IMG/VR virus record: IMGVR_UViG_3300020411_001412
Location: 1-47,775 of that record
Direction: 5' to 3' (one strand)
DNA: 47,775 bases
Origin: a virus
The position numbers were made by a program, and so were the translations under genes. Within the stretch, counting starts at the first letter, position 1, and every line of letters starts with the position of its first letter. Below the pieces are notes generated by a model, which saw nothing but the letters and a program-made list of their open reading frames with translations, was not told the DNA's origin and did not search any database. This document shows, one piece after another, positions 1-42,013 of this stretch.

Positions 1-145
1 GTATATTTAAAATGTCAAATTAAATGTATGTTTGTGTTATTTAACGATGATAATATTGACTCTAGTTAGTGTTATCTAAGAGCGTAACATAGCGAGATTT
101 TTTTGTCAACAACTATGGAGAAATATGTCAATCTTCGCAAACACC

Positions 146-174
146 TTGACACCACACATTTCTTGCTATATAAT
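146..174 (+). promoter_or_regulatory. Consensus sigma70-type promoter
   Basis: The -35 box TTGACA lies at 146-151 and the -10 box TATAAT at 169-174, with a 17-base spacer; all three match the bacterial housekeeping consensus exactly. Transcription would start near 181, about 15 bases before the ATG at 196. It probably drives the cluster of small genes 196-747 early in infection using host RNA polymerase. The timing is inferred; the match is read directly. Confidence 0.8.
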
Positions 175-195
175 AACAATGTAAGCACAATTACA

Positions 196-348
196 ATGGG
201 AAGATCTTACAAACGTAATGACCCTTATTCATCACATAAGGCGAAAAGTTTGAGAGAAAAGAGAAAACAATCCAACACTAAGTTCAAAGGAGTTACTAAC
301 AACAATCCGCACAATAATGTGGAAAAGTATTACAAACCCCGCCCCTAA
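196..348 (+). CDS. Small basic hypothetical protein, 50 aa
   Basis: This 50-residue, strongly basic protein begins MGRSYKRND and is rich in Lys, Arg and Asn. An open frame extends upstream to a TTG at 103, but that stretch contains the consensus promoter at 146-174. The ATG at 196, just downstream of the predicted transcription start, is therefore the better start. No domain, membrane segment or signal peptide is visible. Charge and size suggest nucleic-acid binding or an early host-interaction role, but that is a guess. A second small basic protein lies at 6066-6203; the two are alike in composition only. I have a weak recollection of similar small proteins in cyanophages. Confidence 0.6.
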   Translation: MGRSYKRNDPYSSHKAKSLREKRKQSNTKFKGVTNNNPHNNVEKYYKPRP

Positions 349-388
349 TTGCCCCCCTATACTATGCCCCGCATTGCCCTTTTTTGCT

Positions 389-559
389 ATGTCTAAAATA
401 ACAACTATTCAGACAATTCCACCAGTAAATGTTAAATTGTGGTCACACGGTTCTAAACACTTTTGGGCATACGATTACCCAGGAAATAGTAAGAACGGAC
501 CATTTAAATCTGAGAAATTAGCATTACTTGACGCAACCCAATTCTCTAGTGATTCATGA
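389..559 (+). CDS. Hypothetical protein, 56 aa
   Basis: The frame can be read from an ATG at 317, but those codons overlap the preceding gene and give a Pro/Cys-rich, unlikely N terminus. The ATG at 389 gives a natural start, MSKITTIQTIPPVNVKLW, so I prefer it. No clear Shine-Dalgarno sequence precedes it. The protein is soluble, with the central string HGSKHFWAYDYPG, and has no domain I recognise. Its stop overlaps the next start in an ATGA junction, which points to translational coupling. It probably belongs to the early transcript from the 146-174 promoter. Confidence 0.5.
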   Translation: MSKITTIQTIPPVNVKLWSHGSKHFWAYDYPGNSKNGPFKSEKLALLDATQFSSDS

Positions 560-747
560 CAACAATTCCACACAAATTGCAGTTATTACTTGATAACTAC
601 GATGAGGGATTATTACCCCCTGATTTACAAATAGAGATGGCACAGTTCTTAATAGATTGTGACCTACATAATGAGTTATTACAGTATCAACAATTATGCG
701 ATTATTACATCGCTGAGGGTATATGCTATGACGTGCAATTAGCATAG
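556..747 (+). CDS. DUF7417-like small protein, 63 aa
   Basis: This 63-residue acidic protein contains YDEGLLPPDLQIEMAQFLID near its middle. That resembles the DUF7417-type small proteins I associate with cyanophages and cyanobacteria (Leu-Asp-Asn-Tyr-Glu/Asp-x-Gly, then Pro-Pro and a Gln-Ile-Glu-x-Ala-Gln helix). No function is known. The start is fixed by the ATGA overlap with the upstream gene, and helices are predicted for most of its length. The family name is from memory and the match is moderate. It is probably an early gene of the same small transcript. The stem-loop at 762-811 lies just after the stop. Confidence 0.55.
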   Translation: MTTIPHKLQLLLDNYDEGLLPPDLQIEMAQFLIDCDLHNELLQYQQLCDYYIAEGICYDVQLA

Positions 748-6222: not shown

Positions 6223-6249
6223 AACATATTGGCACTAAATATAGGTAAT

Positions 6250-6663
6250 ATGCCATCGTATAGGTTCAGATCTGAAAAATATATCAGTAGAGGGTTTAAG
6301 GATTTAGCAGTCTCTTTTAAAGCAAACCCTTCTACAGGAGATTTTGGTGTGGTCAAAAATGAAAACGCTATAAAACAGTCTGTCCGAAACATCATATTAA
6401 CAATGTTTGGTGAAAGACCTTTTCAATATGAAATTGGGTCTAGGGTTAAAGCACTATTGTTTGAGCCTTGGGATCCATTTAGTGCTGATAGTATGAAAAG
6501 TGAAATTCGTAATGCTCTGGATAGATTAGAACCAAGAATCGAAGTTAACCAAATTAAGTTAAGGGATGATTCTGATATAAATTCCATCCAGGTTGGTATT
6601 GACTACACTATCGTGGGTCAAGAAGAAATACAAAACGTCGAATTTCTCTTAGAGAGAGCATAA
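6250..6663 (+). CDS. 25: Baseplate wedge subunit gp25
   Basis: gp25 is part of the inner baseplate wedge and helps nucleate the tail sheath in contractile tails. The 137-residue product has the gp25-like signature: NPSTGDFG (26-33), a helix, then GERPFQYEIGS with the conserved Arg-Pro, and LEPRIEV later. The family is often labelled lysozyme-like, but its known role is structural. The frame is open to a TTG at 6229, but that lies at or before the expected transcription start of the late promoter. The ATG at 6250, preceded by AGGTAAT, is the better start. Its stop overlaps the gp6 start (TAATG). Confidence 0.93.
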   Translation: MPSYRFRSEKYISRGFKDLAVSFKANPSTGDFGVVKNENAIKQSVRNIILTMFGERPFQYEIGSRVKALLFEPWDPFSADSMKSEIRNALDRLEPRIEVNQIKLRDDSDINSIQVGIDYTIVGQEEIQNVEFLLERA

Positions 6664-8762
6664 TGTCCGCTATTCCATCACAATTAACGTCGTTAGACTT
6701 CTTTGAAATCAAAGAATCTATCAGATCTTACCTTAGAACTCGTAAAGAATTCACAGACTACGACTTTGAAGGTAGTTCTGCGTCATATTTGATAGATATT
6801 CTTGCTTATAACACTTATTATACTGCCTTTAATGCTAATATGGCATTAAATGAGGCATTTCTGGAGACTGCTACTGTTAGAGATAACATTGTAAGGATAG
6901 CAAAGCAGTTAAATTACACTCCAAGGTCTATAAAAGCAGCTAGAGCATGCTTGAGATTGGTTGCACAGACAACAACATCTCTAAATGGCACTACATTCCC
7001 AGAATTTTGCACATTACATAAAGGTGATGTGTTTGTAGCAGAGAATGAGGCTGATACTTTTACCTTTGCATTGACAGAAGACATCAAAGTTGCGGTAGAT
7101 TCATCTACTGGAAAGGCAACCTTCGATAATGTATTGGTATATCAGGGAAATCTGCTAACATACAACTATACAGTTGATTATACAGTCAAGCAGGACTTTG
7201 TAATACCTGCTGAAAACGTTGATACCTCTCTTTTGAGAGTAGATGTATCTCCAAATGCTCAATCCTCTGAAACTGACACCTATAGTCAGGCAGCAAACAT
7301 CACATCTACTGATGCTACCTCAAGGATTTACTATTTGGAAGAGGCAGATGACCTTAGATACCGTTTAGTCTTCGGTGATGGGGTTATTGGACGTAAATTA
7401 ATCGATGGAGAATACCTTACCCTCACCTATGTGGTAACAAATGGTGTTGAGGCTAATGGATGTAAGAATTTTGACTATATTGGTTATATAAACGACTCAG
7501 ATGGTAGACCAATTAACCCTGCTGCCATCACATTGGTCACCAAAGACGCTGCACAGGACGGTGAAGAGCACGAAACCGCACTTTCGGTTAAGTTTAGAGC
7601 ACCTAGGGCATATGCAACCCAAAACAGGGCAGTTACTGAAACAGATTATGAGCATATCGTCTCTGAAATCTATCCACAAGCAGCTTCAGTGACTGCTTAT
7701 GGTGGTGAGAAGTTAAATCCACCTGTTTATGGTAAAGTTTATGTCGCTATACGACCAAAAACAGGAAATAAGCTTAATGAGACAACAAAACAGAAGATAA
7801 AAAACGATTTGAAGAAATATTCAGTCGCTTCTATTGAACCAGTCATCATTGACCCAACTTCTTTCTACGTTATTCCAAAATCTTACGTTTATTACAACGG
7901 AAACGAGACTGGACTTACTGGATCGCAACTTGGTACTAAAGTTTTACAGTCTATTGATAATTATAACAGAAATGGACAGAATAACAGGTTTGGAGGACGT
8001 ATAGACGGCTCTAAATTTGGTGCAATGCTTGATAATAGCGATACCTCCATTGCAGGTAACGTTACACAGATGACTTTAGGTCAAAATCTCGATAAATTCA
8101 CTTTTGGTAACGTATTTACCCAATGTCTTGATTTTGGTAACCCACTTTATAACCCATCTAACTATTCTGGCAATCCAGATGGAGGAGATGGTGATAATAC
8201 AGGTGTTTCCTGTAAACCTTCCTTCTCTGTTGCTAAATCTGGTACATTTTATGCCACAGGCTACACAGAAGACCTTGTAAACCTCACTTTAAGTGATGGT
8301 GCTACTGCTGCTGCTATATCAACTCCTGGTTTAAGCACAAATGTAACAAATCAGGTGTTAGTCCCAGTAAATATAAGAGATGATGGATCAGGAAACCTCA
8401 TTCTAGTTACTACTAGAGATGAGACTGAATTGATACTCAATCCTTCCGTTGGAAGTGTAGATTATGCGAATGGAATAGTCTGTGTTGGACCGATTGCAAT
8501 ACAAGGCACTCCAGATGATACTGAAAGACTTCCAATTCAAGTATTACCAGCTGGTGGATCAATTAATATCCCACCAGGTGTAGATCCAACAATCTTTAAC
8601 CCATCAGTCAATCCTATTGACTATACAATCAACGATACTGCAATCCCCACCTTCGATCCTAACAACTTTAATGGTTTCAATTTCGGTGATATTGGGGGCA
8701 TAAATATTATCGATTATCCAACTGATACGTTCACGTATCCAGTCAGCGACTCCTGTTTCTAA
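6663..8762 (+). CDS. 6: Baseplate wedge subunit gp6
   Basis: gp6 forms the continuous inner ring of the T4-type baseplate and contacts gp25 and gp7. The 699-residue product, close to the T4 length, opens with TSLDFFEIKESIRSYLRT and then has YDFEGSSASYLIDILAYNT, the hallmark N-terminal region of gp6/baseplate J-like proteins. The middle has FGDGVIGRKL (about 237-246) and an Asp/Glu-Thr-Asp-Tyr-Glu segment typical of the family. The C-terminal part (about 500-699) is rich in Asp, Asn, Pro and Gly and looks more variable. It overlaps gp25 by one base and is followed after six bases by the gp7-like giant, matching T4 gene order 25-6-7. Confidence 0.92.
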   Translation: MSAIPSQLTSLDFFEIKESIRSYLRTRKEFTDYDFEGSSASYLIDILAYNTYYTAFNANMALNEAFLETATVRDNIVRIAKQLNYTPRSIKAARACLRLVAQTTTSLNGTTFPEFCTLHKGDVFVAENEADTFTFALTEDIKVAVDSSTGKATFDNVLVYQGNLLTYNYTVDYTVKQDFVIPAENVDTSLLRVDVSPNAQSSETDTYSQAANITSTDATSRIYYLEEADDLRYRLVFGDGVIGRKLIDGEYLTLTYVVTNGVEANGCKNFDYIGYINDSDGRPINPAAITLVTKDAAQDGEEHETALSVKFRAPRAYATQNRAVTETDYEHIVSEIYPQAASVTAYGGEKLNPPVYGKVYVAIRPKTGNKLNETTKQKIKNDLKKYSVASIEPVIIDPTSFYVIPKSYVYYNGNETGLTGSQLGTKVLQSIDNYNRNGQNNRFGGRIDGSKFGAMLDNSDTSIAGNVTQMTLGQNLDKFTFGNVFTQCLDFGNPLYNPSNYSGNPDGGDGDNTGVSCKPSFSVAKSGTFYATGYTEDLVNLTLSDGATAAAISTPGLSTNVTNQVLVPVNIRDDGSGNLILVTTRDETELILNPSVGSVDYANGIVCVGPIAIQGTPDDTERLPIQVLPAGGSINIPPGVDPTIFNPSVNPIDYTINDTAIPTFDPNNFNGFNFGDIGGINIIDYPTDTFTYPVSDSCF

Positions 8763-8768
8763 GAATAA

Positions 8769-8904
8769 ATGACTCCGATAACCAAGAATATCAACGTCTC
8801 TGATAGGGTCGAAAATCAGTTACCTGAATTTATACGCCAGGAAGACAGACAATTAGTCAACTTCCTATTTGAGTATTATAAATCACAGGAAAAAACTGGT
8901 AGAC
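8769..8904 (+). other. gp7-like N-terminal segment of the giant
   Basis: Residues 1-45 include LVNFLFEYYKSQ and DILNNLMRYL, which follow the pattern of T4 gp7 just before its conserved core (a Phe-x-Glu-x-Tyr helix, then Leu-x-Asn-Leu-x-Arg). This suggests the large fibronectin-like N-terminal part of T4 gp7 is absent here. Confidence 0.5.
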
Positions 8905-11900
8905 CATACGATATCCTCAACAACTTGATGAGGTATCTTGACCTTGACAAATACTCATCAGAAGAGTTGTCAAGTAGCACGAGCTTGTTAAAAGATATTG
9001 GGGTAGATGATACTAAGATAGAAATAGAGAGTATTAATGGATTCCAGACAAGAGATGGATCCATAATGGTTGATAATGAGGTCATTTACTACGAGGGAGT
9101 CACTCGTGGACCTGACGTTATTATTACACCTGGTATTTCACTTCCACAGTTTAATAAGAAGAAGCAACAACTAGAAAACCCCTTCACATCGTTTGATGGT
9201 GTTGAAAGAGTCTTCCCATTAAGTTTTTTAGGTACTCCTATAGCACCTCCTAGTGCAGAGCACCTAATTGTAGTGACATACAACGATATGCTGATTCCTG
9301 GATCAGAATATACCGTTAATGGAACTAATATATCATTTACAAATCCACCTAGAGCAAGAACAGGTGCAGATGATTCAGAATTTACTCAAGTAGTATATTT
9401 GGTTGGATATGCAGACCAAACAATCGTTACTGCTGACCAAATCCCATATCAAGAGTGGCAGAATACTCAAGTTTATCCATTAAGAGTTAATGGACAGTCT
9501 TATACTCCAACTTCTGATATTGGTTTAATTATTAACAAGAATGGTAGGTTACAAACTCCTCAAGACGACTATACCCTCTTTGAAGACAAGGTTATCTTCA
9601 AAAACCCAGTCGGTGCTGCTGATCTTATCCATATTAGGTCTGTTGAATATGTTGCTCCTGCATATGGGTCTGGAGCCTCAGCTATTGCTCAAGTTGATAC
9701 CATAGGTCAGATTGAAGCAATCATTCCTAAGAATGGTGGTAAGAAGTATCGTCTAGATTTCGCTCCTAAGGTTGCTATAACCCATAAAGATGGTATTAGT
9801 GCTACTGCAAAGTCTCTAGTTGGTGGTATTAAGGATATTAACCTTATAGATGGTGGACAAGGGTATTCTTCTTATAACCCACCTATCCCAGTAGTTGTAG
9901 CACCTGCAGATCCTAATGGATCCATTGCACAACTAAGTTTAACGGTTAATGATGTAACTGGAACAGTTGATAGCGTTACTATTACTAATAGTGGTAGTGG
10001 ATATGACTTTATTCCCGCTATTTCCTTTAAAAATCCTTCTGGTGCTACTATAGGTGCACCTACTATTGACATAGAAGGTAGAGTTAACATAGGTAGCATC
10101 CCTGTTATCACTATGGGTAGTGGATATAGTAATCCACCCGAAGTTTATATTGATGCTGCCCCAGATGGGGGTATCAATGCTCAGGCAGTCTCTAAAATCA
10201 ACCAAGATGGTCAAGTATACGAGATTACCATTGTTAATAGGGGTAAAGGATACATTACACCTCCTAGAGTAAAGATTATTGAGCCTATAGGTGCTCAAGT
10301 CCTTGATGTAACGGTTGCATCGGGAAGTGTTACAAATATTGAGATGTTAACAGGTGGTAGCGGTTATACAGACGCACCATCAGTCTACATAGTTGACAAA
10401 AGGGTTGATGGATATGGAGAACCAATTGGAGGTACTGGTGCAACAGCAGTTGCCACCATTTTTAATGGTGAAATCACCGATATCAACATTACTAACTTTG
10501 GAACTGGTTATTCCGAGTCTGAACCCCCTCAAATCTATATTGCAGAACCTAAATCCGCTAGAGCATCGGTAGATGTAGGTTTTGACGAAGTAACTGGATT
10601 CGACATCCTAGAAAAGGGCAGTGGATACTCTTCTTCTGCCTTTTTACAATGTTCTCGTGGTGTTTCTGGTCCTGTTAAGTATGATAACCTTCATAATGAG
10701 ATATATGCCACTGAATCGAATTTAAGACAGTCTGATCACCATGCAGGTGCTGCTGTAGTCAATTTAGACACTTTATTCATCAAAGAAGTCTTCGATAAGT
10801 TTAGAAGGCAGTATTTGCCGACTTTAGACATTGATTTTGCGTCAATTAACCCAGTTCAGGTAATTAAGAATATTACCGACTTCTATATCTCGAAAGGTAC
10901 TAAATTATCGACTCAATACCTCTTCAAAATTCTTTTTGGTGAAGATGTTGACCTTTATTATCCAAAAGATGAAATAATCAGTCCATCTCATGCAACTTGG
11001 GTTGTAGACACGGTTTTAAGAGCCGAATTGATGGAAGGAGACCCAACTAACCTAATTGACTCCCAAGTTAACCAATATGCCGATGATGTAGACCCTAATG
11101 TTACTGCTGCGTCTGCATTAATTGAAAACGTCATTACAATCATCGAAGGAACCGATACAATCTACGAATTGGCGATTTCTGAAGAAACCTTGGTTGGTAG
11201 CTTCATTATTCCTTATAAAACTCGTCTTGTTGAGCCATTATCGACCACTGGGCAAATAATCACTGTTGACTCTACTATTGGATGGCCTGAGAGAAATGGT
11301 ACCATAAGAATAAATGATGAAGAAGAAGTACAATATAAAGAGAAATCTCTGAACCAATTCATCGAATGTACCAGAAGCAAAAACGGTATTGTTGAGGATT
11401 GGGATCCAGGAACGATTATTCAGTCCGATATTTACGTTTGGACTAACTTTGGAACACCACAGCAATGTAAGTTAAGAATATTAGGAATTGCTGAAGCAGG
11501 TACTACAGTTCTTAATGATACAGGGTCATATTACCTTCAAGGAGATAAACTAAAGGTAGCAAACCTTGGATCTACTGCTGAGGAGTTAAGACTCCAATCT
11601 TGGTTATATAACGTCAAGAAACTTATTCAAGTTACCTCTATAACTCCTGGTGGAGTTAATAACCAGACTGCGACTGTAGTTTGCAGTAACCCACATGGAT
11701 TATTGGTTTCTGACCAAGTTACCATATATGGTGCTAACCCAGTTGTCTATAATGGCACATTTACGGTTACATCACGTATTGACCAATTTACTTTCTCTTA
11801 TCAGATAGCAACACCTACAGAGATAATTCCTACTGGTAATATTCTCTTATCTGTTGACTTAAACAGAGGTAAGTCTGATGTAGTATCAATAAACAAGGTT

Positions 11901-14900
11901 GTTAGTGAATTTACAACTAACATACAGAATGCATTTTTCAACGATAACTATGTTTATGTTGCTGCTTCTGGTTTACCCAACTATAAGATTGGTCCTTTCA
12001 CTGGGTCAGCTCTCATCCCAGGAAACCAAAGGAAACTCTTAAGATTCCCCAGAACAGTACAAACCGTCTCAGAAAGACAAGCAGTTGCTCCAGGTACTCC
12101 AATAGGTAGTTGGGTCAACGGTGTTTCTATATGGTCATATAAGTCTCCAGACTATATTCAGTATGGTCCTTTAACCTCTATTAGTGTTACTAGCGTTGGT
12201 GAAGGATATGATGCAGGTGCTAAACCCAACGTAGAAATCACTGGGGGTGGTGGAACAGGTGCTGCTGCTGAAGTTATAGTTAATGGTAGTCTTTCATCAT
12301 TTGATGTTATAGAACAGGGTAGTGGATATACAGAATCACCTTTAGTATCAATCGTAGGTGGCGGTGGTATTGGTGCTACTGCTCAAGCAGTTATTACAGG
12401 TGGTAGAGTAACAAGAATTTTAGTTGAGCAACCAGGTTCAGGTTATACGACTCAACCCCTAGTTTCTATTACTGGAGGTGGAGGCACTGGTGCGACTGCT
12501 ACTGCCAGTGTCCGTGGACCTATTAGTAGTGTTAATATTACAAACTTCGGTAGTGGATATACTTCACTCCCTGACATTAAAGTTAACTCTGGTGAGAATG
12601 CTTTAGCACAACCAATCGTATTAAATGGTAGAATCGTTTCTATCGCTATTATTAACTCTGGTAATTCCTATACAACAGCACCTAATGTAATAATCAATGG
12701 TGATGGATTTGGTGCAATCGCTAAAGCAACTATCGGTACAATTGGTGAGGATAAAGGACGTGTATTAAGCGTTTCCATCACTAACCGTGGAATTGGGTAT
12801 ACACAAGGTTTAACAACCGTCAGACTCGAAGCAGTGGGTCAATTAGCGTCATTCCAACCTACAGTTTACCAATGGAATAGAAACCTTCAATATGAATTGG
12901 CAGATAAGTTTGATGGTGCAAGTGGATATGTATTTACTGGATTTAACAACCAGTTTGGTGGTGAATATGCTCACTTATCAGATCCTAAGGAATTAAGATA
13001 TGTTGTTGGTGATAACGTATTCTTAAATCCTGTTACACAGAATTTCCAAGAAGTTGCTTCTAATTATGACCACTCACCTATTATAGGTTGGGCATTTGAT
13101 GGAAACCCAATTTATGGTCCTTATGGTTACATTGACCCAACTGACCAGAATAGTGGTATCAGAAGGATGCGTACATCCTTCAAATTGAAGACTAATGTTG
13201 TATTTGATGCAACTACTAACCCTAACCCTTCTAGGGTAGATGGACCTCCTATTTCAACATATGCTGCTGGAACATTTGTTGATGATTACTACTATGATTT
13301 CCAATCTGGTGATTTAGACCAATATAATGGTCGTTTCTGTAAAACACCTGATTATCCAGATGGCACATATGCATACTTCGTAACTATCGATGCTAGTGAC
13401 GCAGGTATTGCTGAATTCCCATATATCGTTGGACCTCAGTTTAACTCACTTCCAGATTCATGGAATTTGAATCAAGCAGCAACACAGGAGAATATTCCTG
13501 ATGGAGTTGTCCGTTATAGAGATCCATATACTGATGTTGACATTGATATTGACCGTCAACCAAACCAGACTGCTGATGTCTTTACTACTGAGATAGAAGG
13601 TTATCCTATCATCTTTGAAATACAAGACTCTAATAATGATGGTTTGATTGATGCTAATGAGCAACAAGAATTATTAGAGATGTCTGAAGAGGCAACTCTA
13701 CAAATATACGATTATTTCCCAAGAGTATCAGCAGAGTCTAGAGTTGATATTGAAGTTGAGACAACTACCCAATTTGAGAATGCTCAGATAGATGGATTCG
13801 TTGTTGAAAACCCAGGTGTTTCATATCAGGTAAATGACACCATATTCTTCGATAATGAAGGAACTGGTGGATTTGGTGCATCTGCTCTTATTGAATCTGT
13901 TAAAGGACAGAATATAATTGGTTATCAAAAAGAAATGATTGGTGACCGTCCTTACGGTGTAATTACTACTGATATAGAGCATGAATTACGTCAACAGGAT
14001 GAAATCATTGTAAACTCACGTCCTGTTATTGATAATACTAATAAGACGTTTAGAGTTAAGGTTGTAGCGGGTGTTGAGAATATTGCTATAACTCAATCAG
14101 GTACTGGATATAATACAGATATTCCTCCAACATTTGAGTTAATTACTGCATCTGGACAAGATGCTGAGTTATCACTTGTATTAGAGAATACAGGTCAAGT
14201 TAATGCTGTTAATATCATTAACTCAGGTAATGGATACGATTCTGATAATCCTCCTCAGATTAGGGTATCACATCCACAACAATTCAAGAAAACAAGGTAT
14301 TGGTTAGCTGAATATCAAGAAGCAACAGGTATAGTTAGTATCAATGATATTGTAACCACTGAAGAGCGTTATACTTATATTTGCGGTAGCATCACTGAGA
14401 CAGATGGTGATATGGCAGCATTCCTTGCCAAGTTTGATGATTTAGGTCAACTTGTTTGGGAAAGAAACCTTCTTCCTCAAAATGCAGGTCAGAAGAAAGC
14501 AGAATTCATTAAGATTCTAGTTGACGCAGTTCCAGAGAATGACCTCATATATGTTGTTGGACATACTTACGATCCAAACAATTCAGCATATAATCCTGAT
14601 ATATGGTTAGGTAAGTATGAATCTGGATTTAATAATGCTAATGCACCTGATGGTATTCTTAAATGGCAGAAAGCGATTGCAGGTATCAGTGGTACTACAA
14701 GAAGGGATTGGGTAACTTCCTTAGCACTTGACCAGGAAGGTCGTATCTATCTTGCAGGTTATACAGATAGTAATTCCATAGATCCTAACGATATGTGGAT
14801 TATCCAGTGTAACTTGGATGGTGACCTTGTAGAGAAGAGAAAGATTGCATCTGCAACTGATTCTGAAATGATTAATCAGATTCAGTGGATATCTGATGAT

Positions 14901-17900
14901 AGATTCTTCATGGTTGGTCAAAATGACGAAAATGACGATTGTATCTTCGGTGTATTCTGGTTTGATGGTGCAAACCTTGAAATTGAATATATTCGCCAAA
15001 TTCCAACAATAGGTGGATATGTAAGAAATCCTAAATTCACTATTGACGAATATGACGATGTAATCTTAGTTTGGGACGTATATAACGGTGCAGCACAGAA
15101 ATACGATAAAGTCCAGATTAACAAGTTTCCATTATCTACAGCATCTACTTCATGGACATGGAGTAAGACTGTAACCATTAGTGGTAATATTGACGCTATT
15201 AGACATGCAGGAGTCAATGTAGATAAGTTTGGAAATTATACTTTAGTTACTGATGTAATAGAAGACCAAAATCAGAGATATGCGATATATCACTATATCA
15301 AGTATGATGGTAACGTAATTAAAGAATCTAAAGTTGATGATACTACAAGTATCGGATTCCAAGCTATAACTCACTCAGTTGATAACTCTGGTGATGTAAT
15401 AATGGTTATTAACAGACAACAGTCTGACCAAATTGCAGCATATAGATTTAATGATGATACTGATTTAGATTACGACTTTACTAAGCAGAATAAGGCAGCA
15501 ATGACCTTCTATTCTCCATCTGACGCATCATATGATTCATCATTCTATAAGTATGGCACTGGTGCACTTAAACTAAGTGCAGTTAACCCAGTTTCTCTTC
15601 CTAATCTTAATCTTGAGTCTAAAGAGTGGAGTTTCAGAGCATGGTTATCCATGAATTCTACTGCTCATTCTACAGACCATAAACCACTTCTTTGGGATAT
15701 TCTACCAGTAGCAGGTGATTCAATTCAGGTTGAATTGGATGGTGATACTAATAGTGCAAACTATGAGAAAGTTATAATCTATGTAAACTCTGTACAGGTT
15801 GCAACTTCTCTTCTTGCTACTAACTGGACTGCATTTGCAGGTGCATCATGGGTGCATGTTACATTCCAGAAGAGAGAAGAATCATTAGGTCTTTATCAAT
15901 ATGAAGTCTTTATCAATGGTGCTTTAGTTTGTAACTTCCAATCAACATCTGATATCAGTGTTGGTAGTGCAGTCCTTTGTGGTAAGTCTGCTGGACCTAC
16001 AGCTAACAATACATTCATTGGATGGGTAGATGACTATGTGATTGATGATGTTGCTCCATATCTTTCTGCTTATAGTGTGCCATCGGCCGAGATTGAAATT
16101 ACTACTTCAAACTCTGATTCTGCCTTAGTTAAATTTGACAGAGAGCATACTAAGAGAGGAAGTTATGCACTTAGTGGACTAGACAATTATACACAATTAG
16201 ACTTTACAGATAATGAGATTACAACTACATGGGTTGATGTAGGTCTATCTGCTATCAGTCCATGGACTGTTGGAGCAGGTGGTTTACAGATTCTTGATAT
16301 GTCTCAGGTTGTTTCTAACCTGAATCCTGGCACATATACATTTACTTCTAATAAGTTTGAGTATGGTACTAAGACTTCTACAATACCATCTCCTCTAGGT
16401 AAGAAACTTATTATTGAACCTGAAGTAATCAGTAAATTCTATATTAGAGATGCTCTATATCAGAAGATTGATAATGTAATGGAATTCACCTTCAGTCAAG
16501 ATGTTAAGTTGACTAAAGGATCAATACTTCAACAATTCAACAGCTCTGGTGTTACACAAGCATATGGTACTATTGTAAAAGTTCCAGAAGGAACTCTCCT
16601 GAATCCTGGATATGGTAATAAGTATCAAGTTGGTAAAATATATGGTACTTTTAATAACACTGACCGTTATAGGACAGTAGCAAATGATATTAACCAGATT
16701 GAAGGAACTTACTTTAATACAGAAGAAGAGGAATCACCTTGGCAAGCAAATACAGCATATACTGCGGGTGATAGAGTATACGCTGATAAGAAGATTTACG
16801 AAGTCCAAGCAACAGGTACTTCTGGTACTATTTCATTATCACATACATCTGGTGTTGCTAGTGACGGATTATTAAACTGGGCATTTATTGATGATGCAGG
16901 TAAGTTTACTATTGACTTAACACAACATCCATATCCTAGACCTCAGTGGGTTGGTATGGATATGCCAGAATGGTTACCAGATCGCTTATATGTTGAGGGA
17001 CAAAGAGTATGGTGGAAACTTAATGTATATGAAGTAGCAGTAGGTGGTGCAGGTGTAGCAGGAACAAATGCTCCTGTGCATACTACTGGTGATGCATCTG
17101 ATGGTGGTGTAACATGGACTCACGTTTCTACTGAGGAAGCAATCAGCGTCTATAGTAGATTGATGGGTTATGATATGGGCAATAATTATACGGTCCAGAT
17201 CATGGAAGTCCATCCTGGTTCAGTATACATTCCAGATGACGTTGTTAGTTTAAATGCAGGAAATATAACTCTTGCTGAAGATGAAAAGAGTGTAGAGATA
17301 TCTGGATTTGCTTCAGTTAAAAAGATTCAAGTTACTGCACGTTTAGAGAAAGATATAATTAGGACAAATGCTGTAAGGACAGAATTTGTTTATTGCACAT
17401 CAAATACTGCTCATATGTTTAAAGCAGGTGATATCCTCTTTACTGAAGGATTCAGTACTGCACAATTCAATGGTAGTTTCTTTATTGACCAAGTAATTGG
17501 TAGTAGAGAATTTACATTTGCTATTAGAGATACTGCAAGTAGTGATCCTGCGTTTATTAATAATGCTCTTGGTGGTGTTAACATCTATGCAAAACACCCA
17601 ACATTAGAGTTTACTAGAAATCATCAGTATGTCTTTGACCTATCTGACTCTTCTAACTTTGGATATTACTTATCATTCTCTCAAGATAACCAATACAAAC
17701 TAGAATACTCATTTAACAACATTGAAAGAAATGGAACTCCTGGTATTGCAACAACACCAGCTCCAACAGTTCAATTCTCTGTATTAGGTGAAGTTACTAA
17801 TATTTCCTACTACTTTGATCCATCAAGAACTGGTGCTGATTCACCAGTAGGTACAAACAGTTTTATTGATGTCATTACAACTCCTTTCGATGGTAGATTT

Positions 17901-20900
17901 ACTATTTCAGAAGTACCAACCGATACATCATTCAAATTCCCACTCCTTAAGGAACCTGAAAGGACTAATGCTGAGGTTGGAGAAGATTATCTAGGTAATG
18001 ATTATTCATACTATTCAACTACATCTGTAAGGGCAGTTGGACCTATTAATACAATTCAACTGGTTTCTCCAGGTGGATTCTATCAGAAGTTACCTATCAT
18101 TAGTGATATTGCATCTTTCAGACAAATTGAGAAATGTGTAGTAGTAGATGGAGGTACTGAATATGCTCCAGGTGTTTACTATGATGTGCCTATTGCAGGA
18201 GATGGTGAAGGTGCTAAATGTACTGTTACTGTTGAAGTAGATGAGGAGATTGGATCAGGAACTATTACAAGTTGTGCTGTAACTGACCCAGGTAAAGGTT
18301 ATACAACTGCATCTATTGATATTGACGCTATACCTGGAATATTAGGAGCAACTCTTGCTGGATCTGGTGGTAGTGTAAATGTTGTTATTCCATCAGAAGG
18401 TAGTGGTGCATCTGTATTCTTAACAGGTACTAATATTGGTAAGATTAAGAGATTAAAGAATAATGAATTTGGTTTCGGTTATTCACATGACTATACCTTA
18501 AAACCAGAGATTACCTTCCCTGTTAACTTACAACTCTTTAATACTTCAATACTAAGTCAGATTACCATAACTGACCCAGGTTCTGGATACTCATCAACTC
18601 CAGCTGTTGTAATCGAAGGTGGTGGTGGATCTGGTGCTGAAGCAGAAGCAATTATTAAGAATAATAGATTATCTGAGATAATAATCAAGAATCCAGGTGC
18701 AGGTTACTCATCTGAACCAACTGTTACTCTTAAATCAGAATTTAACTACGTTGTTAACTTAGACCTTAATTATCTACAGTTTAACTTCCCACATGGTATT
18801 ACGTCAGGTGCAGAAGTTACATTTAGGGCAGAAAACGTAGGATCCACAACTGGCGAATTACCAAAACCATCTACCGCAGGTTTAACCAGTTTGGTGGAAA
18901 ATCAGGTTTACTATGCTATTGCTGGTACAGCAGCAGGACTAGAGCCTGACCAATTAAGATTTGGTCTTACTAAAGCATCTGCATTAGCAGGATCTTACAT
19001 TACCTTCTTAACACAAGGTAGTGGTCGTCAAGTCCTTTTAACTGAGGTATTCGGTGGTAAAGCAACTGCTGTTGTTGAAACTTCTAGATTCCTTGAAGGT
19101 GAAGATGTATATCAAGGATCTAATGTTGAAACTGCCACTGCTATGGGTACAGTTTCTACTAACACTGGTTGGCAGATAGGTCCTAAGATTCTTAAGATTG
19201 TTGATTATACTGGTGATTGGGCAGTTGGTGAGTCTGTAACAGGTACTATTTCTAAAGCATCTGGTGTTATTGATAACTTCTCGATTGCACGTGGTGTGTT
19301 AAATATCGGCTCCCTAACGAAGACACCAGGCCGATTTATTGATGACGTTGGTAAACCATCTGAGATTGTCCAGAAGATTCAAGATAGTTTCTTCTATCAA
19401 AACTTCTCTTACGTTGTCCAATCACAAATTCCTATCACAGAGTGGAAGTCTCAAGTATTAGAGAATAACCACCCAGCTGGTTTCAACATGTTTGGTCAGT
19501 TACAACTTACTGGTGGTAAGGACGTATCTGGACGTAAGATTGGTACTGAGTTTACTAAGAAAGTTAATATTAACAACTATAGTAATGTAAACCAGATTAC
19601 ATCATTTGGTGCTGCTCAACCAATCTATACTGACTACAACAATACTGAGGTTCTTTTCCGTAAGAAACGTCTAACATCTTCTGAGGAAATCTTAACTTCA
19701 ATCGTTAAGAAACTTGATAATTTTGAGGATCAGTTTGATGGTATTAAGAAAGCATTCCCAATTACTGTTGAAGGTGAGCAGGTAATCGTTAAGCAAGATC
19801 AGTTGATGATTACACTTAATGGTGTTATTCAGGCTCCTGGTGTTTCTTATCAAGTTGTTGGTGGAGATTTAGTATTCTCTGAGCCACCAAGACCTCCTTC
19901 AAAAGTTAACTATAGAATCATTGGTGTTACACCTACTCCAATATACAGAATTGCTCTTTATAGTCCTGGTGGTAATGCAAACTATGGTATATTCCCAACT
20001 ATAGGTCAGCAAGTACAAGGTGAATTTTCCGATGCTGTTGGAACTGTTATAGATTCAGGTACTAATCATATTGATGTTATCAATATCGTTGGTGGACCAT
20101 TCCAACTTAACGAAGAAATTGTTAGAGGAGAAATCTTCTCAGCATTAGTCGAAACAGTTACTCAGGTTAATAGTGATACTATATTTGAATTTGGTGAAGC
20201 AATTACTAACCTTGAAGGTGATACTGCATATGTTGAAGAGACAAACGTAGATACTGATGGTAATGTTACAGATAGACTTGTTGTAAGTAAGACTTCAGGT
20301 ACTCCAAGATTTGAAACTGGAATATATGACTTAAGACTTAACGAATACATTTATTCTGCATCATCTAAGATTGCAGGACAGATTACATACACTGCACCTT
20401 ACTCAGACCCAATTAATGACGAAGTTGTTGATGAATTAATCATTAACCGAGGCACAACTTTCTTCGGACTACTATTTGAGCGTTTATTAAGTCTAACAAA
20501 CCCAAATATCATTTTAGACAATATTTCGCAATCTTCAATCACTCCAACTAAGCTTTATGATTCTTCAAACAGAATTAACGCTGATTTCCTTGATTTTGAA
20601 GAAGTTAGGACTACAGAAGTTACATATTCACAATTAGCGAATGGTGCTTTTGCAGATGGTGATATTATCCGAAATAAGAAGACTTTCTACGGAAATCCAA
20701 TTTCTGTCTTCCATGGAAACGCTGCAAACCGTTTCTTAGATGGTGGACGTAATATTGCGAATAATAAGCAAGAAATCATCGATTTTGCTGAAGCAAGCAT
20801 TGCAATAGACTATCCAGACTATTATTTCCCATCTGACGTTATTACTAACGCTTGGAGTCGATTTAAAGATGCTTACAGGATGATTCAGAAGAATAAGGCA

Positions 20901-23900
20901 TTAATCGTCGGAATGGCGTTTGATGACATGAAAACTCAATTCCCTTCATCTTCAATTCCTTCAGATGCGAAATGTAAGCGAGATATTGAATATTTCGTAG
21001 ATGCAGTAAGTATTGACATGTATGCAGGTGGAAACCGCTATACACGTAAATTCTGTCAGCAATATTTCAATGAGGCTGGATCTTTCACTTATATCAATGC
21101 TCAAGCAACTGAGACCAAATGGGCTTACGAAAAAGCAAGAGATAGGATGAAAGTTGCTATTGCTAATGGATATTCAGGAACTATTAGTGCAGTAAACTCT
21201 GGAGACTCTTGGGTTGCATATCAGGACTTAACAATCACTGCTGACCCATCACCAACCAATCCTTACGGTACTGCAGGAACTAACACTTCAAATACTGATT
21301 CAGACAACTGTACTGATGTCCAATCTGCTATTGAGACATTACATGAAATAGTTGATGAAACATTAACTAATGGATCTCTAACTGAATTACCAGTTGAATC
21401 TGGTGGTACATATTCACCACACCAAGAGAAGTGCAGAAGAGACCTTGGATATTTCATTGATGCTATTTCTAATGACCTTAAGACTGGTGGTAACTATCAA
21501 ACTGTCCTATTCACAAGATCATTCTTTGATGCTTCTGGCACACCTCTAACTAACGGAATTGTTGGTGAAGAAGCAGAAGCAGTCCATGCATTTACAACTG
21601 CTGGAACATTAATGCATAGAGCAATTAATAACTTAATGTATTGGAAGGATCTCAGTGGGGTTGGATATAACCTTAATGATCCTACTACTTACTCTGGTGG
21701 TGTTGCTCCTGCTAATACTTACGATGCAAACTATGCATCTGGTAATAATCAAGATATCAACAACTGTGCAAACGTTAAGTCTTATATTGATACGCTGAAA
21801 GCGATTGCTACGACTGCAATGACAGCAGGTAATCTTAGCAACGTTAATGCACTTGCATCCATCACAGATGGTACATTCCAAGATGGAGAAACAATTAGGA
21901 CAACTAAATTTGCATATAAGAATAGAAGTCGTGGATTATTCGCTCTTGGAGATACAATCAAGGGTATTACATCTGGTGCTGTATTTGAAGCAATCGGTGC
22001 TAATGCAGGTTTAAAATGGATATTTGCTTCTAATGTTACTGGCACATTCCAAGATGAAGAATGGATAACCAATTCTACTTTAACTGCAACAAATTGCACC
22101 CAAAGTGTAATTATTAAGAAAGCAGAATTAGTAGGAGATAAATCTGTCTACAAACCTTCAAATGGACTTCTAACACAAACAGCAAGTGAAGATTTTGCTT
22201 TTGGAACTGGAGATTTCACAATCCAATCATGGATACGTCCTGCTGCTAATGTTGGCACACAATACCTATTTGACTTCAGAAGATTATCTGCTGCTCAAGG
22301 TTTAAACATTAGAATGGATGGTCAAGGTCTTAAGGTCTATAATGGCACAACCTTGATGGTAAGTGGTAGTGGTGATTTTGCAACAACTGGTACTTGGTAT
22401 CACATCGCTATTGTAAGAAATTCTGGTGTTACTCAGGCATATGTTAATGGTGCTCAAATAGGGTCTAACTACGTTGATACTAACGATTATCTTTACAATG
22501 CTCCTCATATTGGGTCTGACTTTAACCAGTCATCTCATTGGACTGGACATATTGATAATCTTTGCATTAAGAAGGGTGTTTGTGATTTCATTACTGGATT
22601 TACTCCTCCTACTCAAGTTGACTTTACTGAAGATAATATTGTATTAGGTATCGATGGTGAAGGTCCATTCATTGCTTCTACTACTGAAGTATGGGCAACA
22701 TACACTGGACAGAGAACATCATCTACAACTGCTAAGAGAGTTGATTATGATGGTTTAGCACTTATTGCTTCTGATATTGATACTGGTAGAAAAGAATTAA
22801 GAGATTGTGCTGAAATAATCGACCTTAACGGTGCATGGATTGCTGAGGAAGCAGTTGGTCGAATGAAGGCAGCATTCGTTGATTTCACCATTAGAGGTGA
22901 CGATCCAGGAAATAATAGTTACGGTGGTACTAACCTTTGTATTAGGGATACTAAAGATTATATTCTTGGTGCTCTAATTAAAGACTTAAAAGAAGGTGGA
23001 GATTTCCATACAATCTATACTGCAAGGACATACCTTACTACAAGTGGTAAATTAGACCATATCACAGATGAGATTCTACAATCTCTCTATACATGGAATG
23101 AGGTATTTAAACTTTGTGAGACTGTTATTACAACAACATCTACTGACCTATCAGGTGAATATAGCACAAGATTGAGAATACCCAATAACTTCTCATCTCC
23201 TGCATCTTCTACTGTTACTGATGAGATTAAACTATTAGGTGATAATTTACTTAAAGTTGTTGCTCCTAATGACCAAAGATTCAGAGAAGGTGGATTCCAA
23301 CTTTGGAAGAATAGAGATTATATTGCTGAAGAAGTAGCAGGATATATTCAAGACAAATATCAACAGGAGATTAATGAAGTAACATATGACTTCCTTGAAA
23401 TGCCTGGATATGGTCAACCCTACTGTGAACGTGATATCAAAGAATTTATTCTTCCTGCTGTAATGGCTGATTTGGTCACAGGTGGTACATATCAGACTGA
23501 AGCAGTTATTGACAAGTATCTTGATAGTCAGAATAAGGTAATACATGTTGATGAAGAATTAAACCCAATGCTTGATGCATTTGAGTATTGTAAGATGCTC
23601 TGCATGAAGGCAGTTAATAACTTACTATTATCAAGTGGTGAAGCAGCTGCTGAGTTGGGTGTCCCAACATGGGTACAAGAAGAGTATTATGCACCTCAGT
23701 GGACTGCTAGAGCAGCATATAGAGATGATACTATTGTCCTTGATACAGAAGGATATCCTCAGGCAGGATCTAGACAAAACAATGACAGATATCTTGATGC
23801 TGCTGACCTAATCTGGAAGAATAGACACGTCATCGCTAAAGAGTGTGTTAGCACTATGAATGACTTGTCCAAGTATGAGAATCTAAACATTCCTGGTGGA

Positions 23901-26900
23901 CATGTTAACTGTGAAGATGATGTTTTAGATATGATTGAAGCAATGGTACATGACCTTCGCTTTGATTGTAACGAGAAGACATATGATGCTGCTGCATTAT
24001 ACATTGAGACTGAAAATAACTCACTTAAGCATATTGAGGGTGAGTGGGAAGCATCTATAACTGTAGTTAAGATTCTAAGAGATATTACTTCTCTAATAAT
24101 GCGTAATGCATTTGGTAGAGATTATGAAGAAGGTGGATCCCCTGATCAGAAACCAGTTGAATCTTATGAGCAAAATCCAAGAATTGACCTTTATAAGAAT
24201 TGTGGTGATGCGATTGATGGAAACATCAGATATATCGCAGAGCAAGCAGTTGCAGCTGGATTAGTCCAATTCCCTAACCTTAATATTCCTGGTGGTCCTA
24301 TTAACTGTGTCCATGACGTTACTGATATTCTTAGAGCATTAGTATTCAACATCAAGTATGGTGGTAATAACTGGTTACAATATTCTACTGAATTCTATGC
24401 AACATATTCTGGTAATTTAGACCATGTTACTAATGCACCTACTGAAACTAATTGGATAATGAATAAAGCACGTGATTTTGCAATCCGTGCAATGAAGGGT
24501 CAGATTATTACTAATGAAGCAGGACATGTAGTAGACCAAAGATTCTACGATGCAGTGCCAAGACCTACTACAACTATGGTCACAACCAGTGTATTAACTG
24601 GTGCACCTGTTACTGACAATTATAATAATCTTGTAACAAGATCATTCAAGTTTGGTGAAGATAAGATTTCTACAACTGATACTGGCACAGGTATCATACC
24701 TGATGAAGATGCTGTATTCAGTGTTGTAACTAAACTACCTTCTAGTCCAATAGATTGCTGTCTATTTGAAGCAGGTGGTGGTACATCTGGTGTATGGTTT
24801 GGTATCAGAGATGGTGGTACATGGTTGAGATTAAGAGCTGGTAATGGTACTAACTCATATACATCTGGAGCATCATATACTGCTGATACTGGTCTTGCAA
24901 TGCTCGACCTACAGATTAGTAACCTAACACAATACTTTGATGATGGTGACCATGAATTAGTATGGCAGATTGTTATTGGTGGTAACCAAACAACTGGTGC
25001 AGGTAGTGTTACTCTTTGGATTGATGGTCAGCAGGTTGGACAAGCAACAACACCTGGTGGTGGTTGGACAGGTTTAACTGGAGCATCTGGATTATTTGCT
25101 AATACTCAGTGGGCAGGATTCGGTGTTTCTAATGGATCTTTGGTAGCAGGAGAAGCAGCAACTATTAACACATTTACAGTTAATGTTGGACCTGCTCCTA
25201 CTATTGCATATGATATAACTGCTGCTGATTACGATTCATCTACAGGTGATTTAATATTAAATGTTGGTAATCATAATCATACTCCAGGAACATTCTTGAG
25301 GTTGATTTCTAACTCATTAACATTTACATGTGACCAAGATAATCATGCTTCTAATCACACTTATCCTAGATCTGGTGACCCCGCAGGTAATACTGCTGTA
25401 GAGGTATTAGATGTAGGTAGAACTGAGCATACTGCAACTGCTGCGTCATACGATCCTAACTCAGGAATAATGAATATGACCATAGAGCAGCATGGTATGA
25501 CTGCATCAACATCTCATACTGCTAAAGATGCTGCATATGACCCAGATTCAGGTGTCCTAACAATTACTCTTGATGACCATGGATTTAAGACAGGTGACCA
25601 AGTTAAGATTCATAATGGATCTCTAATCTTTACATGTGCTCAAGATAATCATGCTACTAAGCATGGATATCCTAGACAGAAAGATCCAGCTGGTGACCAG
25701 TGGTTATTAATAGAAGAAGTTACACCAAATACATTTAAAGTTAATGTTGGTGCTACACCTAAAGTTGAGTATAATGTTTCCGATGCAGTATATGACCAAA
25801 ATGATGGTGAATTAACTCTTGATATTGGTCAGCATCGTTTCGTTGGTGCTTCAAATCATGTTGCAACATTTGCTGAATATAATGCAGATAAGGGAACATT
25901 AAAACTAACAGTATCTGGACATGGAGTTATAGTTGGTGACCAGATTCAGATCATGGAAAATTCCATGACATTTACTTGCTCAATGGATAATCATTATACT
26001 AACCATGTATATCCAAGAAGCACTGACCCATGTGTAGGTCAATGGTTAGATGTTATTGAATCTGATATTCCTGGTGGAACATTTACAGTTAACGTAGGTC
26101 AATCTCCTATAGTTGGTTGGGATCCATCTGATGCAACATATAATGCTGAGACAGGTCATTTAACACTTGAAATTGGCAATCACTCTCTTGCAGTTGGTAC
26201 TCATGTGAAACTATCACAAGAGTCATTAAACTTCACTTGCTCAATGGATGACCATGCAACGATTCATAGTTATCCTAGAGATACAGACCCAACTCATAAT
26301 GAACCAATACAAATTCTTGCAACCACTGCTACTTCTATAACAGTACCAGTTGGCACAACTCCTACAGTTCAATATACTCCAACAAATGCAACATTTAATC
26401 CTGCTGATGGTCTATTAGAATTAACATTAGATAGAAAGCATACATTCCGTCCTGCTACTATTCATAACATTTCTGGTGGTGAATATAATGGATCTACTGG
26501 ATTAATGAGAGTTACAGTTGCTGACCACGGATTCTCTAATGGTGATTTTGTTAAGATTGCTGATGGTGGAATTACATTCTCATGCACAATGGATGGCAAT
26601 GCATCTAACCATGCATATCCAAGACCATCAGACCCATATTCTAATAAATGGTTAGCAGTTAGAAATGCATCTAAAGATTCATTCGATGTATATGTTGGTA
26701 GAACACCTGAGTTACCATTTACAATAACTGATGCTACATTTGTACCTTCTACAGGTCATATGAGAGTATGGATTGGTGACCATGATTTAGTTGCAGGTGA
26801 TTATGTAAGAATGACAGAAGAGTCAATCGGATTTACCTGTTTATTAGATAATAATATTTCCAAGAAATACTATCCTAGGTCATCTGGATCTAACTACGTT

Positions 26901-40534: not shown

Positions 40535-42013
40535 ATGGCAAAGCAAAATCTCAATATAGGTTCGTCGGCAAACGACGGGACTGGTGACAGTCTGAGGGAT
40601 GGTGCTATCAAATTGAATAGCGTCATCAACGAACTGTATACCAATCTGGGAAACGATACCAACCTTCAAATTAATGTAGGGTCTCCAACACAGGGACAAC
40701 TACTTAAATGGAATGGTGCTCAGTTTGCTGAGGGCGGTTTTAACTCATTTACTGAAGATGTAGATGTAAATGATTTCTCAATAATATCAAGTGCAAATGG
40801 TGACATTACTCTTAAACCCAATGGGACTGGCGATGTTAAGTTTTGGGCAGCCAATACTGGAAGTGCTCTTACTTATATCGATGGTGAAGATGGAAAATTA
40901 AAATATTCAAATCATTTCCCAACAGTAGGTGATTTACCTGATGTTAACAGTCATCATGGTATGTTTGCCTATGTTTCTGCTGATGGTAAACCTAGAGTTG
41001 CTAGTAGCACTGCTTGGGTACCAATAATAACAGAGCAAAGTGGATTAGGTAGTCTAGGTGACGTTGATATGACCGTTGGTGGCGGTCCAAGTGGTGGTCA
41101 AGTTATTAAATGGAATGGATCAACAAACAAATGGGAACCAGCTAACGATGATTCGTCAGGTGGTGGAGGTGGTGGCACAACTCAAAACCTCTTTGAAGGA
41201 ATCACTGCTGACACTGGCAGTACTACTGCTAGTGCTCCTACTGATGTCCTTACAGTTGCGGGAGGCACTAATATCTCGACTACAATCGTCGGAGACACCC
41301 TCACAATAGCAATGACAGGGACACTTGGTGACCCTGATCAGAATCTCTACAGTGTCATAGGTAGTGATGCAGGAAATAAGACTGCAAATAGTGCAACAGC
41401 ACAGATTAATTTCGTTGGTGGCACTGGAATTTCTACTGCTATAGCAGGAGATGACTTAACAATTACTAATGATGCACCTAACGTAGTCCAAGAAGTTTAT
41501 AAAACAATAACAGGTGATAGTGGTACCACAACTGCACAGTTGTCAACCTCTACCCTGAATATTGCAGGTGGTTCAGGATGCACATCAGTAGCAACTTCTA
41601 ATACTTTGACAGTTAATGTAGATGTACCTTTACCATCTACTTCAACTAGAGGACAACAACTAATATTTGATGGTAGTGACTGGATATCAGCAGTTGCACA
41701 CGTCAATTTTGACATTACATCTAATATGAGTAATGCATATAGACTATCTGGTGGTGGAGTTGGCACTTCTACTGACAACCCAACAATATACCTCATGAGA
41801 GGTTTCACATATAGATTTGTTAACACAACTGGTAATGCTCACCCATTTGAAATAAGAGCATCAGCAGGTGGATCTGCCATTACTAATGGTATTACAGGTT
41901 CAACTTCTGGAGTCCAATATTATACTATCCCACAGACTTTAAGTCCTGGTACCACTTATGTTTATGAGTGTACTGCTCACCCCGCTATGGTAGGTAACAT
42001 TATAATCGTATGA
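40535..42013 (+). CDS. Tail structural protein with C-terminal cupredoxin-like domain
   Basis: The 492-residue product starts NIGSSANDGTGDSLRDGAIK, a common start of phage tail-fibre-type proteins. Residues about 60-390 are Gly/Ser/Thr-rich with repeated strands ending in LTI or TVNV, probably a fibrous region. The last 100 residues look like a cupredoxin: FRLVNTTGNAHPFEIR-like strands with His436, and YVYECTAHPAMVG with Cys479, His482 and Met485. His...Cys-x2-His-x2-Met is the full blue-copper ligand set, with the amicyanin loop length. A copper or other metal site, or a fold kept for binding only, are both possible. The stop overlaps the next start in an ATGA junction. Confidence 0.7.
   Translation: MAKQNLNIGSSANDGTGDSLRDGAIKLNSVINELYTNLGNDTNLQINVGSPTQGQLLKWNGAQFAEGGFNSFTEDVDVNDFSIISSANGDITLKPNGTGDVKFWAANTGSALTYIDGEDGKLKYSNHFPTVGDLPDVNSHHGMFAYVSADGKPRVASSTAWVPIITEQSGLGSLGDVDMTVGGGPSGGQVIKWNGSTNKWEPANDDSSGGGGGGTTQNLFEGITADTGSTTASAPTDVLTVAGGTNISTTIVGDTLTIAMTGTLGDPDQNLYSVIGSDAGNKTANSATAQINFVGGTGISTAIAGDDLTITNDAPNVVQEVYKTITGDSGTTTAQLSTSTLNIAGGSGCTSVATSNTLTVNVDVPLPSTSTRGQQLIFDGSDWISAVAHVNFDITSNMSNAYRLSGGGVGTSTDNPTIYLMRGFTYRFVNTTGNAHPFEIRASAGGSAITNGITGSTSGVQYYTIPQTLSPGTTYVYECTAHPAMVGNIIIV

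Follow-up and report, generated by a model that had tools for sequence, protein, structure and literature searches.

A giant gp7 baseplate wedge protein with a conserved core interrupted by large inserts

Can a baseplate wedge protein keep its core when thousands of residues separate the parts of that core? The question arises from a marine cyanobacterial virus, IMG/VR virus record IMGVR_UViG_3300020411_001412, whose whole stretch of 47,775 bases (positions 1 to 47,775) is the window analyzed here. A single uninterrupted open reading frame (ORF) at 8769-38513 on the plus strand encodes 9,914 amino acids with a computed mass of 1,075,786 Da (~1.08 MDa). An earlier note, made from the DNA letters, had recognized in this frame two motif pairs of gp7, a baseplate wedge protein of phage T4, and had proposed that its core is split by one long insertion. 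Our analysis indicates that the giant is very probably a gp7 with a conserved but discontinuous core of three modules, with inserts that would loop outward. The part of this explanation that concerns the core is well supported.

T4 gp7 landmarks in the giant frame

The sequence of T4 gp7, taken from NC_000866 (NP_049765, 1,032 amino acids), carries four landmarks: DFYSTKG at residue 733, FLFKVLY at 746, WKSDV at 875 and HPVGF at 884. The giant has slightly different letters, DFYISKG at 704, YLFKILF at 717, WKSQV at 3559 and HPAGF at 3568, each occurring once. Their order is that of T4, as the earlier note had stated, and the spacing inside the pair equals that of T4 for both pairs (13 and 9 residues). 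Its approximate separations of about 150 residues in T4 and about 2,850 in the giant become 142 and 2,855 when counted exactly. A BLASTP comparison of T4 gp7 with the 9,914-residue protein, taken as a database of one sequence, gave the two landmark segments as its two best matches (E 0.001 and 0.008), and their order was kept.

Because phmmer, with the first 4,957 residues as query, gave no match among PDB sequences, profiles were used instead. They cover the surroundings of the landmarks, which we term core module 2 (residues 663-764, DFYISKG...YLFKILF; 10755-11060, plus strand) and core module 3 (residues 3528-3580, DSFFYQNFSYV...WKSQV....HPAGF; 19350-19508, plus strand). Profile matches to the two modules score 131.2 and 88.4 bits in the giant. 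For the comparisons with T4 and the PDB, the profiles were built from twelve sequences, the window's own included and T4 excluded. Against a six-frame translation of the whole T4 genome, each of these two profiles gave one match, within gp7 (module 2, E 6.8e-10; module 3, E 2.6e-4), and gp7 was again the best match for both in a separate profile run on 18 kb of T4. Among 177,635 distinct PDB sequences, ranks 1 and 2 were two distinct gp7 sequences for both profiles, with significant values for module 2 (E 3.9e-7 and 1.9e-6). Aligned profile against profile by hhalign, both modules match the T4 gp7 family, module 2 with E 2.2e-9 and module 3 with 9.4e-6. The first of these matches runs past module 2 to about residue 825 of T4 and residue 817 of the giant (96 columns, probability 96), so that the stretch of residues 765-817 (11061-11219, plus strand) is alignable as well.

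The Pfam family Baseplate_wedge (PF23786) reaches 18.5 bits on the giant, under its curated cut-off of 27, and covers residues 695-736 only. A weak half-match of module 3 lies at residues 1046-1070 (domain E 0.22). The PDB sequence searches list no TssG, gpI or XM1 gp17, although remote folds can be missed by sequence search.

The position of the gene agrees with this assignment. The giant lies directly 3′ of gp6, as had been noted: gp6, the partner of gp7 in T4, occupies 6663-8762 on the plus strand (699 amino acids; PHROG 219, E 4e-202), and six bases separate its stop from the giant's ATG. A gp25-like baseplate wedge gene stands before it at 6229-6663 on the same strand (PHROG 261, E 6.8e-52), and the gene in the same position in P-TIM40 is annotated as T4 gp25-like. 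In 13 of 13 other relatives fetched, a wedge gene in the gp6 position precedes the gp7 homologue, and the order in T4 is the same. Within the giant ORF, PHROG 701 covers residues 7-3829 in one stretch, with more stretches in the second half. The bases upstream of the giant's ATG (8750-8770) show no clear Shine-Dalgarno sequence, though a baseplate with the stoichiometry of T4 would call for six copies of this very long protein.

In all eight records searched, T4 and the closely related 199 kb record G001 among them, each of the two core profiles matches exactly once at E ≤ 0.1. The window is itself a fragment, and G001, which has the same 9,914-residue frame and is 99 and 100% identical to the window in two stretches compared, stands in for the rest of the genome. 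A complete gp7 elsewhere, which the earlier note had named as evidence that would speak against its reading, was found by neither core profile in the window or in G001. The giant is the only gp7 found, and this holds genome-wide as far as G001 can stand in for the 47,775-base record. Across 369 loci, no locus has two ORFs carrying the same one of modules 2 and 3. One candidate for a second gp7 was S-SZBM1_205 (615 amino acids), which an excerpt of PMC9146016 also calls "baseplate wedge initiator"; neither core profile gives a second match in the S-SZBM1 genome.

Taken together, motifs, order, position and uniqueness show, at the level of sequence, that the giant ORF is this phage's gp7. The alternative that module shuffling has brought the two motifs into a large structural protein unrelated to gp7, the likeness being convergent, could draw on the recurrence of parts of the giant in neighboring genes and on the annotation of some relatives as head closure, gp8 or gp14. 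It is nonetheless highly improbable given the single match per core profile in each of the eight records, the constant module order, the place of the gene after gp6 and the existence of compact versions. The HTVC008M record labels its homologue of gp7 (L168:7506-10556) "head closure Hc2", as do PHROGs 460 and 3465, which match the giant; the label probably belongs to a misnamed gp7-type group.

The length of the frame recurs in other records. Among 28 long records, chosen for length and not at random, frames range from 6,180 to 9,922 amino acids, that of G006 (7,092 amino acids) being a lower bound since it reaches the contig's end, as others may do. In a 47,775-base virus record one might suspect that assembly had joined an ordinary gp7 to other genes, as such records may be fragments. 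Such a chimera is hardly credible, because the 9,914-residue frame is also present in two other records, G001 and G002, because the frame has 9,553 amino acids or more in 8 of the 28 long records, and because the distance from module 2 to module 3 varies little within the class. The relatives kept by our searches were 80 of 157, 80 of 267, 33, 1, 80 of 480 and 80 of 437.

Core modules and the sites of interruption

A third conserved segment, core module 1 (residues 9-66; 8793-8966, plus strand), stands at the N-terminus and scores 87.3 bits with its profile. It is predicted to be helical, with helices at residues 10-17, 20-25, 27-41 and 47-56 in a low-confidence part of the structure model. 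The three modules occur in order, straight after gp6, in the much shorter proteins of Stenotrophomonas phage Moby (503 amino acids) and Pseudomonas phage pf16 (523 amino acids), and module order is constant in the ORFs tabulated.

Modules 2 and 3 occur together in 160 ORFs (369 loci). A further 202 ORFs with only one of the two (176 and 26) run off the end of their stretch and are uninformative. The closed ORFs with one of them are those of L178 (two ORFs, the frame being broken between the modules), L313 and T4, where module 3 falls below the cut-off used. Module 1 stands alone in five ORFs, four of which run off the stretch end and one of which is closed. Since modules 2 and 3 keep company in 160 ORFs and single-module ORFs are mostly uninformative, module 3 looks like a regular partner of module 2 rather than a stray module. 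Its residues D, Y, Q, S, Y and H are invariant in 12 of 12 rows.

The gap between modules 2 and 3 measures ~2,760 residues in the giant. About 2,700 of these (residues 818-3527; 11220-19349, plus strand) form a large insert where T4 has ~40 residues. Tabulated over 161 ORFs, which do not represent 161 independent phages since some loci share a contig (L007 and L087, for example), the distance from module 2 to module 3 falls into size classes from ~100 to 2,789 residues. It is ~103 in T4 (758 to 862), 224-242 in pf16 and Moby, 375 in Melnitz, 485-517 in pelagiphages, 784 in phiM7, 1,076 in S-CRM01, 1,427-1,697 in the S-RIM44 class, 2,195-2,206 in S-SM2 and P-SSM2, 2,512 in L234 (one ORF) and 2,742-2,789 in the window's class.

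A second site of interruption lies between modules 1 and 2, where distances over 202 ORFs also fall into classes (-4 to 19, 84-124 and 592-603 residues). In the giant, this region holds a small beta domain in two halves, residues 68-113 (8970-9107) and 623-662 (10635-10754), on either side of a beta-rich bead array (residues 114-622; 9108-10634; all on the plus strand) with eight G.[GS]Y motifs. The division comes from alignment A3, for which 60 relatives were chosen from 103 non-redundant of 266 rows. In 13 of 13 rows of the mid-size class, this alignment follows the giant from residue 1 to 113, skips the array and takes up again at residue 623. In the giant class, the ~85-residue beta domain is therefore divided by ~510 residues, and the step from ~85 to ~597 residues is nested. 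Three pelagiphage rows align over the beta domain in fragments only, and the single pf16 row jumps from residue 52 to 665. Insertion appears to be the simpler reading of this nesting.

The gp7 core is interrupted between the landmarks, as had been proposed, and the interruption recurs in separate records. The single insertion of the original proposal gives way to two sites, between modules 1 and 2 and between modules 2 and 3, followed by a tail of 6,334 residues.

Structure models bear on the first site. The model of residues 1-800 (61 rows) has a mean predicted local distance difference test score (pLDDT) of 83.6, with block means of 89-95 for the bead array (residues 111-630). Its best VIA-align match is the JBD30 baseplate chain 8rk3_b (Z 9.8, 2.1 Å over 77 residues, model range 68..670), and lambda tail-tip chains cover similar model ranges at Z 6.1-6.5. 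VIA-align reports the first and last aligned residue only, and a best Z of 7 to 8 is common. From the range ends we infer that both halves of the beta domain are aligned to 8rk3_b with the bead array left out. This suggests that the two halves come together again as one beta domain despite the ~510 residues inserted within it, a reading that is supported but not proven.

Several results weigh against reading the giant as a gp7 with one core made of all three modules. Module 3 alone is not significant against the solved gp7 structures in the PDB (E 0.04 and 0.19). Module 1 is not detectable in T4, with an HMM (hidden Markov model) E of 1.6 at rank 7 and an hhalign probability of 1.6, though the alignment is placed correctly. 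A PDB search with the long alignment A5, which includes the inserts, lists a minor tail protein (8vjh_A, 8.3e-5), a J-domain tip protein, a tailspike and a restriction enzyme, and gp7 is not among the listed matches. Most core-helix blocks of the 1-800 model have pLDDT of 50-70, and unrelated barrels span a similar model range at Z 3.6-4.6 (EF-Tu and Tsr1 at 4.5-4.6). T4 gp7 is not among the listed VIA-align rows, which are mostly beta parts, and a Foldseek search of the same model against the PDB gave no match at E ≤ 0.001. A model of the compact pf16 gp7 (A5, 28 rows) reached a mean pLDDT of 37.6 and was discarded, and no model contains modules 2 and 3 together. Given the empty Foldseek search and the failed pf16 model, it is a prediction drawn from sequence that modules 2 and 3 (residues 640-770 and 3500-3620 in the earlier note) fold together despite the ~2,700 residues inserted between them.

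The weak match of module 3 to solved gp7 and the lack of a model joining it to module 2 would also fit a gp7 in which no T4-like core is rebuilt, module 3 forming its own domain and modules 1 and 2 holding the wedge by themselves. The core bundle of XM1, made by N-terminal helix-turn-helix motifs according to an excerpt of PMC10457771, points the same way. We consider this arrangement unlikely. With its invariant residues and its presence beside module 2 in 160 ORFs, natural proteins of ~500 amino acids included, module 3 does not seem easily dispensable. A single core that includes module 3 therefore remains the preferred explanation.

In this explanation, the ORF encodes gp7, which in baseplates of the T4 type is a monomer of the wedge and binds gp6. 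Its core is conserved but discontinuous: a split beta domain comes between modules 1 and 2, then ~2,700 residues between modules 2 and 3, then the 6,334-residue tail. Modules 1-3 would fold as one gp7 core within a (gp6)2-gp7 wedge. The inserted arrays and the tail would loop outward to form much of the baseplate periphery, and the arrays may carry domains for contact with carbohydrates or receptors, which in other phages are separate, attached proteins.

Contents and possible roles of the inserts and tail

The best-scoring domain of the large insert is a YHYH domain (PF14240; residues 1395-1542; 12951-13394), at 103.1 bits against a cut-off of 25; it was absent from the earlier note, which had listed a propeller-like region, a lectin-like domain and CBM-like modules. 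The propeller stands, with an SBBP beta-propeller repeat (PF06739; residues 1975-2004; 14691-14780) over its cut-off (25.0 against 20.5 bits). The other two are weaker: a lectin-like, Laminin_G_3-like stretch (PF13385; residues 2273-2425; 15585-16043), scanned in a piece, lies just below its cut-off (26.5 against 27.6 bits), and a CBM_5_12-like stretch (PF02839; residues 2658-2685; 16740-16823) reaches 18.5 bits against 26.2. All four are on the plus strand. Blocks of the insert recur in S-RIM44, P-SSM2 and S-SM2 relatives in the best colinear chains of BLAST matches; the order in such chains is imposed by the method, and other matches exist.

The C-terminal extension (residues 3581-9914; 19509-38510, plus strand) contains a LamG domain and a repeat array. 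Its Laminin_G_3 match at residues 4474-4600 is stronger than that in the insert and sits after the second landmark, outside the insert. Over residues 8-4369, the giant and P-TIM40 share a colinear order with 61% identity, and the giant's extra length relative to P-TIM40 lies in the C-terminal half. Of 31 YPR motifs in the giant, 30 fall at residues 5532-8633 (25362-34667), in a repeat array with a unit like TFTC..D...T.H.YPR..DP... and irregular spacing. A weak resemblance to the Phycobilisome family occurs at residues 4034-4102 (20868-21074; 20.6 bits against a cut-off of 22.2, E 4.7e-4), in what is a cyanophage structural protein.

Proteolytic processing is common among T4 head proteins. An insert removed by proteolysis, or spliced out in the manner of an intein, would leave a compact gp7 in the virion. 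Mass spectrometry found an orthologue, S-SZBM1_208 (6,619 amino acids, 724 kDa), in CsCl-purified particles, with 71 peptides and 13.5% coverage, as given in an excerpt of PMC9146016. Its presence there supports the explanation of the giant as gp7; the peptide coverage can be counted in favor of removal. However, Pfam scans of the giant at E up to 1 list neither an intein nor a homing-endonuclease family, although a missing match is not proof, and the insert consists of several structural domains, some of them common to relatives, rather than one element. Removal of the insert is thus quite improbable, and we favor a gp7 that retains its inserts.

Parts of the giant recur in nearby genes. The next gene (38522-40510) carries a free-standing relative of the YHYH domain, with 49% identity to residues 1435-1555 of the giant, and its end resembles the giant's own end (9803-9903). 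Two baseplate-type neighbor genes, at 42010-43950 and 43985-45520, have stretches in common with residues 300-630, 1173-1312 and 3106-3236. This recurrence makes module exchange within the operon plausible.

By analogy with XM1 gp17 and TssG, described below, the inserts and tail may take part in host recognition, a task left to separate subunits in other systems. A further and tentative proposal, which we consider possible but doubtful, is that gp7 has absorbed the baseplate periphery: its loops would have grown, by repeated nested insertion at fixed sites, into covalent arrays, thousands of residues long, that recognize the host and pass on the trigger, replacing long tail fibers. Under this proposal, an inserted domain would itself have been split later. 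Six copies per baseplate would amount to ~6.5 MDa if the T4 copy number holds. In agreement with a role in recognition, S-SZBM1, S-WAM1, P-RSM6 and P-TIM40, which are relatives of the window's phage, are reported without long tail fibers or their genes in an excerpt of PMC9146016; the giant points to a possible location of the receptor-contacting parts in these phages. By published structures, the gp7 group is common to type VI secretion and other contractile injection systems. A core interrupted at fixed sites, over distances from ~100 to ~2,790 residues, makes the growth of a multi-megadalton machine without loss of its core testable.

Comparison with known systems

A giant cyanophage gp7 is not new as an annotation. 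The labels gp7 or "baseplate wedge initiator" already stand on the records of P-SSM4 (7,312 amino acids), P-SSM2, S-SM2, S-WAM1 and S-SZBM1 (S-SZBM1_208). The gp7 proteins of non-cyanophage T4-like phages are so divergent that they form several gene clusters, according to Sullivan et al. 2010 (PMC3037559, in excerpt). In open-licence PMC papers, represented mostly by their listings, we noticed no account of a discontinuous gp7 core, of nested insertion or of a graded series.

In T4, gp7 occurs as a monomer in six copies and belongs to a set of seven wedge proteins whose order of assembly is strict (PMC3004832, in excerpt). The giant shares with T4 gp7 the place of the gene after gp6, the DFY-KG-LFK and WKS-V-HP-GF landmarks with equal internal spacing, and a stretch after module 2 that is alignable to about T4 residue 825. 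The two proteins differ in the distribution of their length. In T4 gp7, ~640 residues precede the core and ~100 part module 2 from module 3. In the giant, module 1 starts after 8 residues, a split beta domain stands between it and module 2, module 3 follows ~2,760 residues later, and the 6,334-residue tail comes last.

The giant cyanophage orthologues, P-SSM4, S-SZBM1_208, S-WAM1 and P-TIM40 (7,351 amino acids, annotated "putative structural protein"), belong to the same class, with the same split sites and similar distances; the giant, at 9,914 amino acids, is longer. At the other end of the range, the compact gp7 proteins of pf16 and Moby, both annotated as hypothetical protein, keep the same three modules in the same order after gp6. 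In contrast to the giant, their module 2 follows module 1 with little or no spacer, the distance from module 2 to module 3 is 224-242 residues, and the tail is under ~110 residues long.

Vibrio phage XM1 gp17, a gp7 orthologue, and TssG of type VI secretion are placed in the gp7 group by the literature and form heterotrimers of the (gp6)2-gp7 type, in which loops or the C-terminus anchor peripheral parts (excerpts of PMC10457771 and PMC6300606). In XM1 gp17, tail spikes are held by an internal loop (80-106) and the C-terminus (PMC10457771), and in TssG, loops 1 and 2 each hold one TssK trimer (PMC6300606). Unlike the giant, XM1 gp17 (242 amino acids) and TssG are small proteins whose peripheral subunits are separate.

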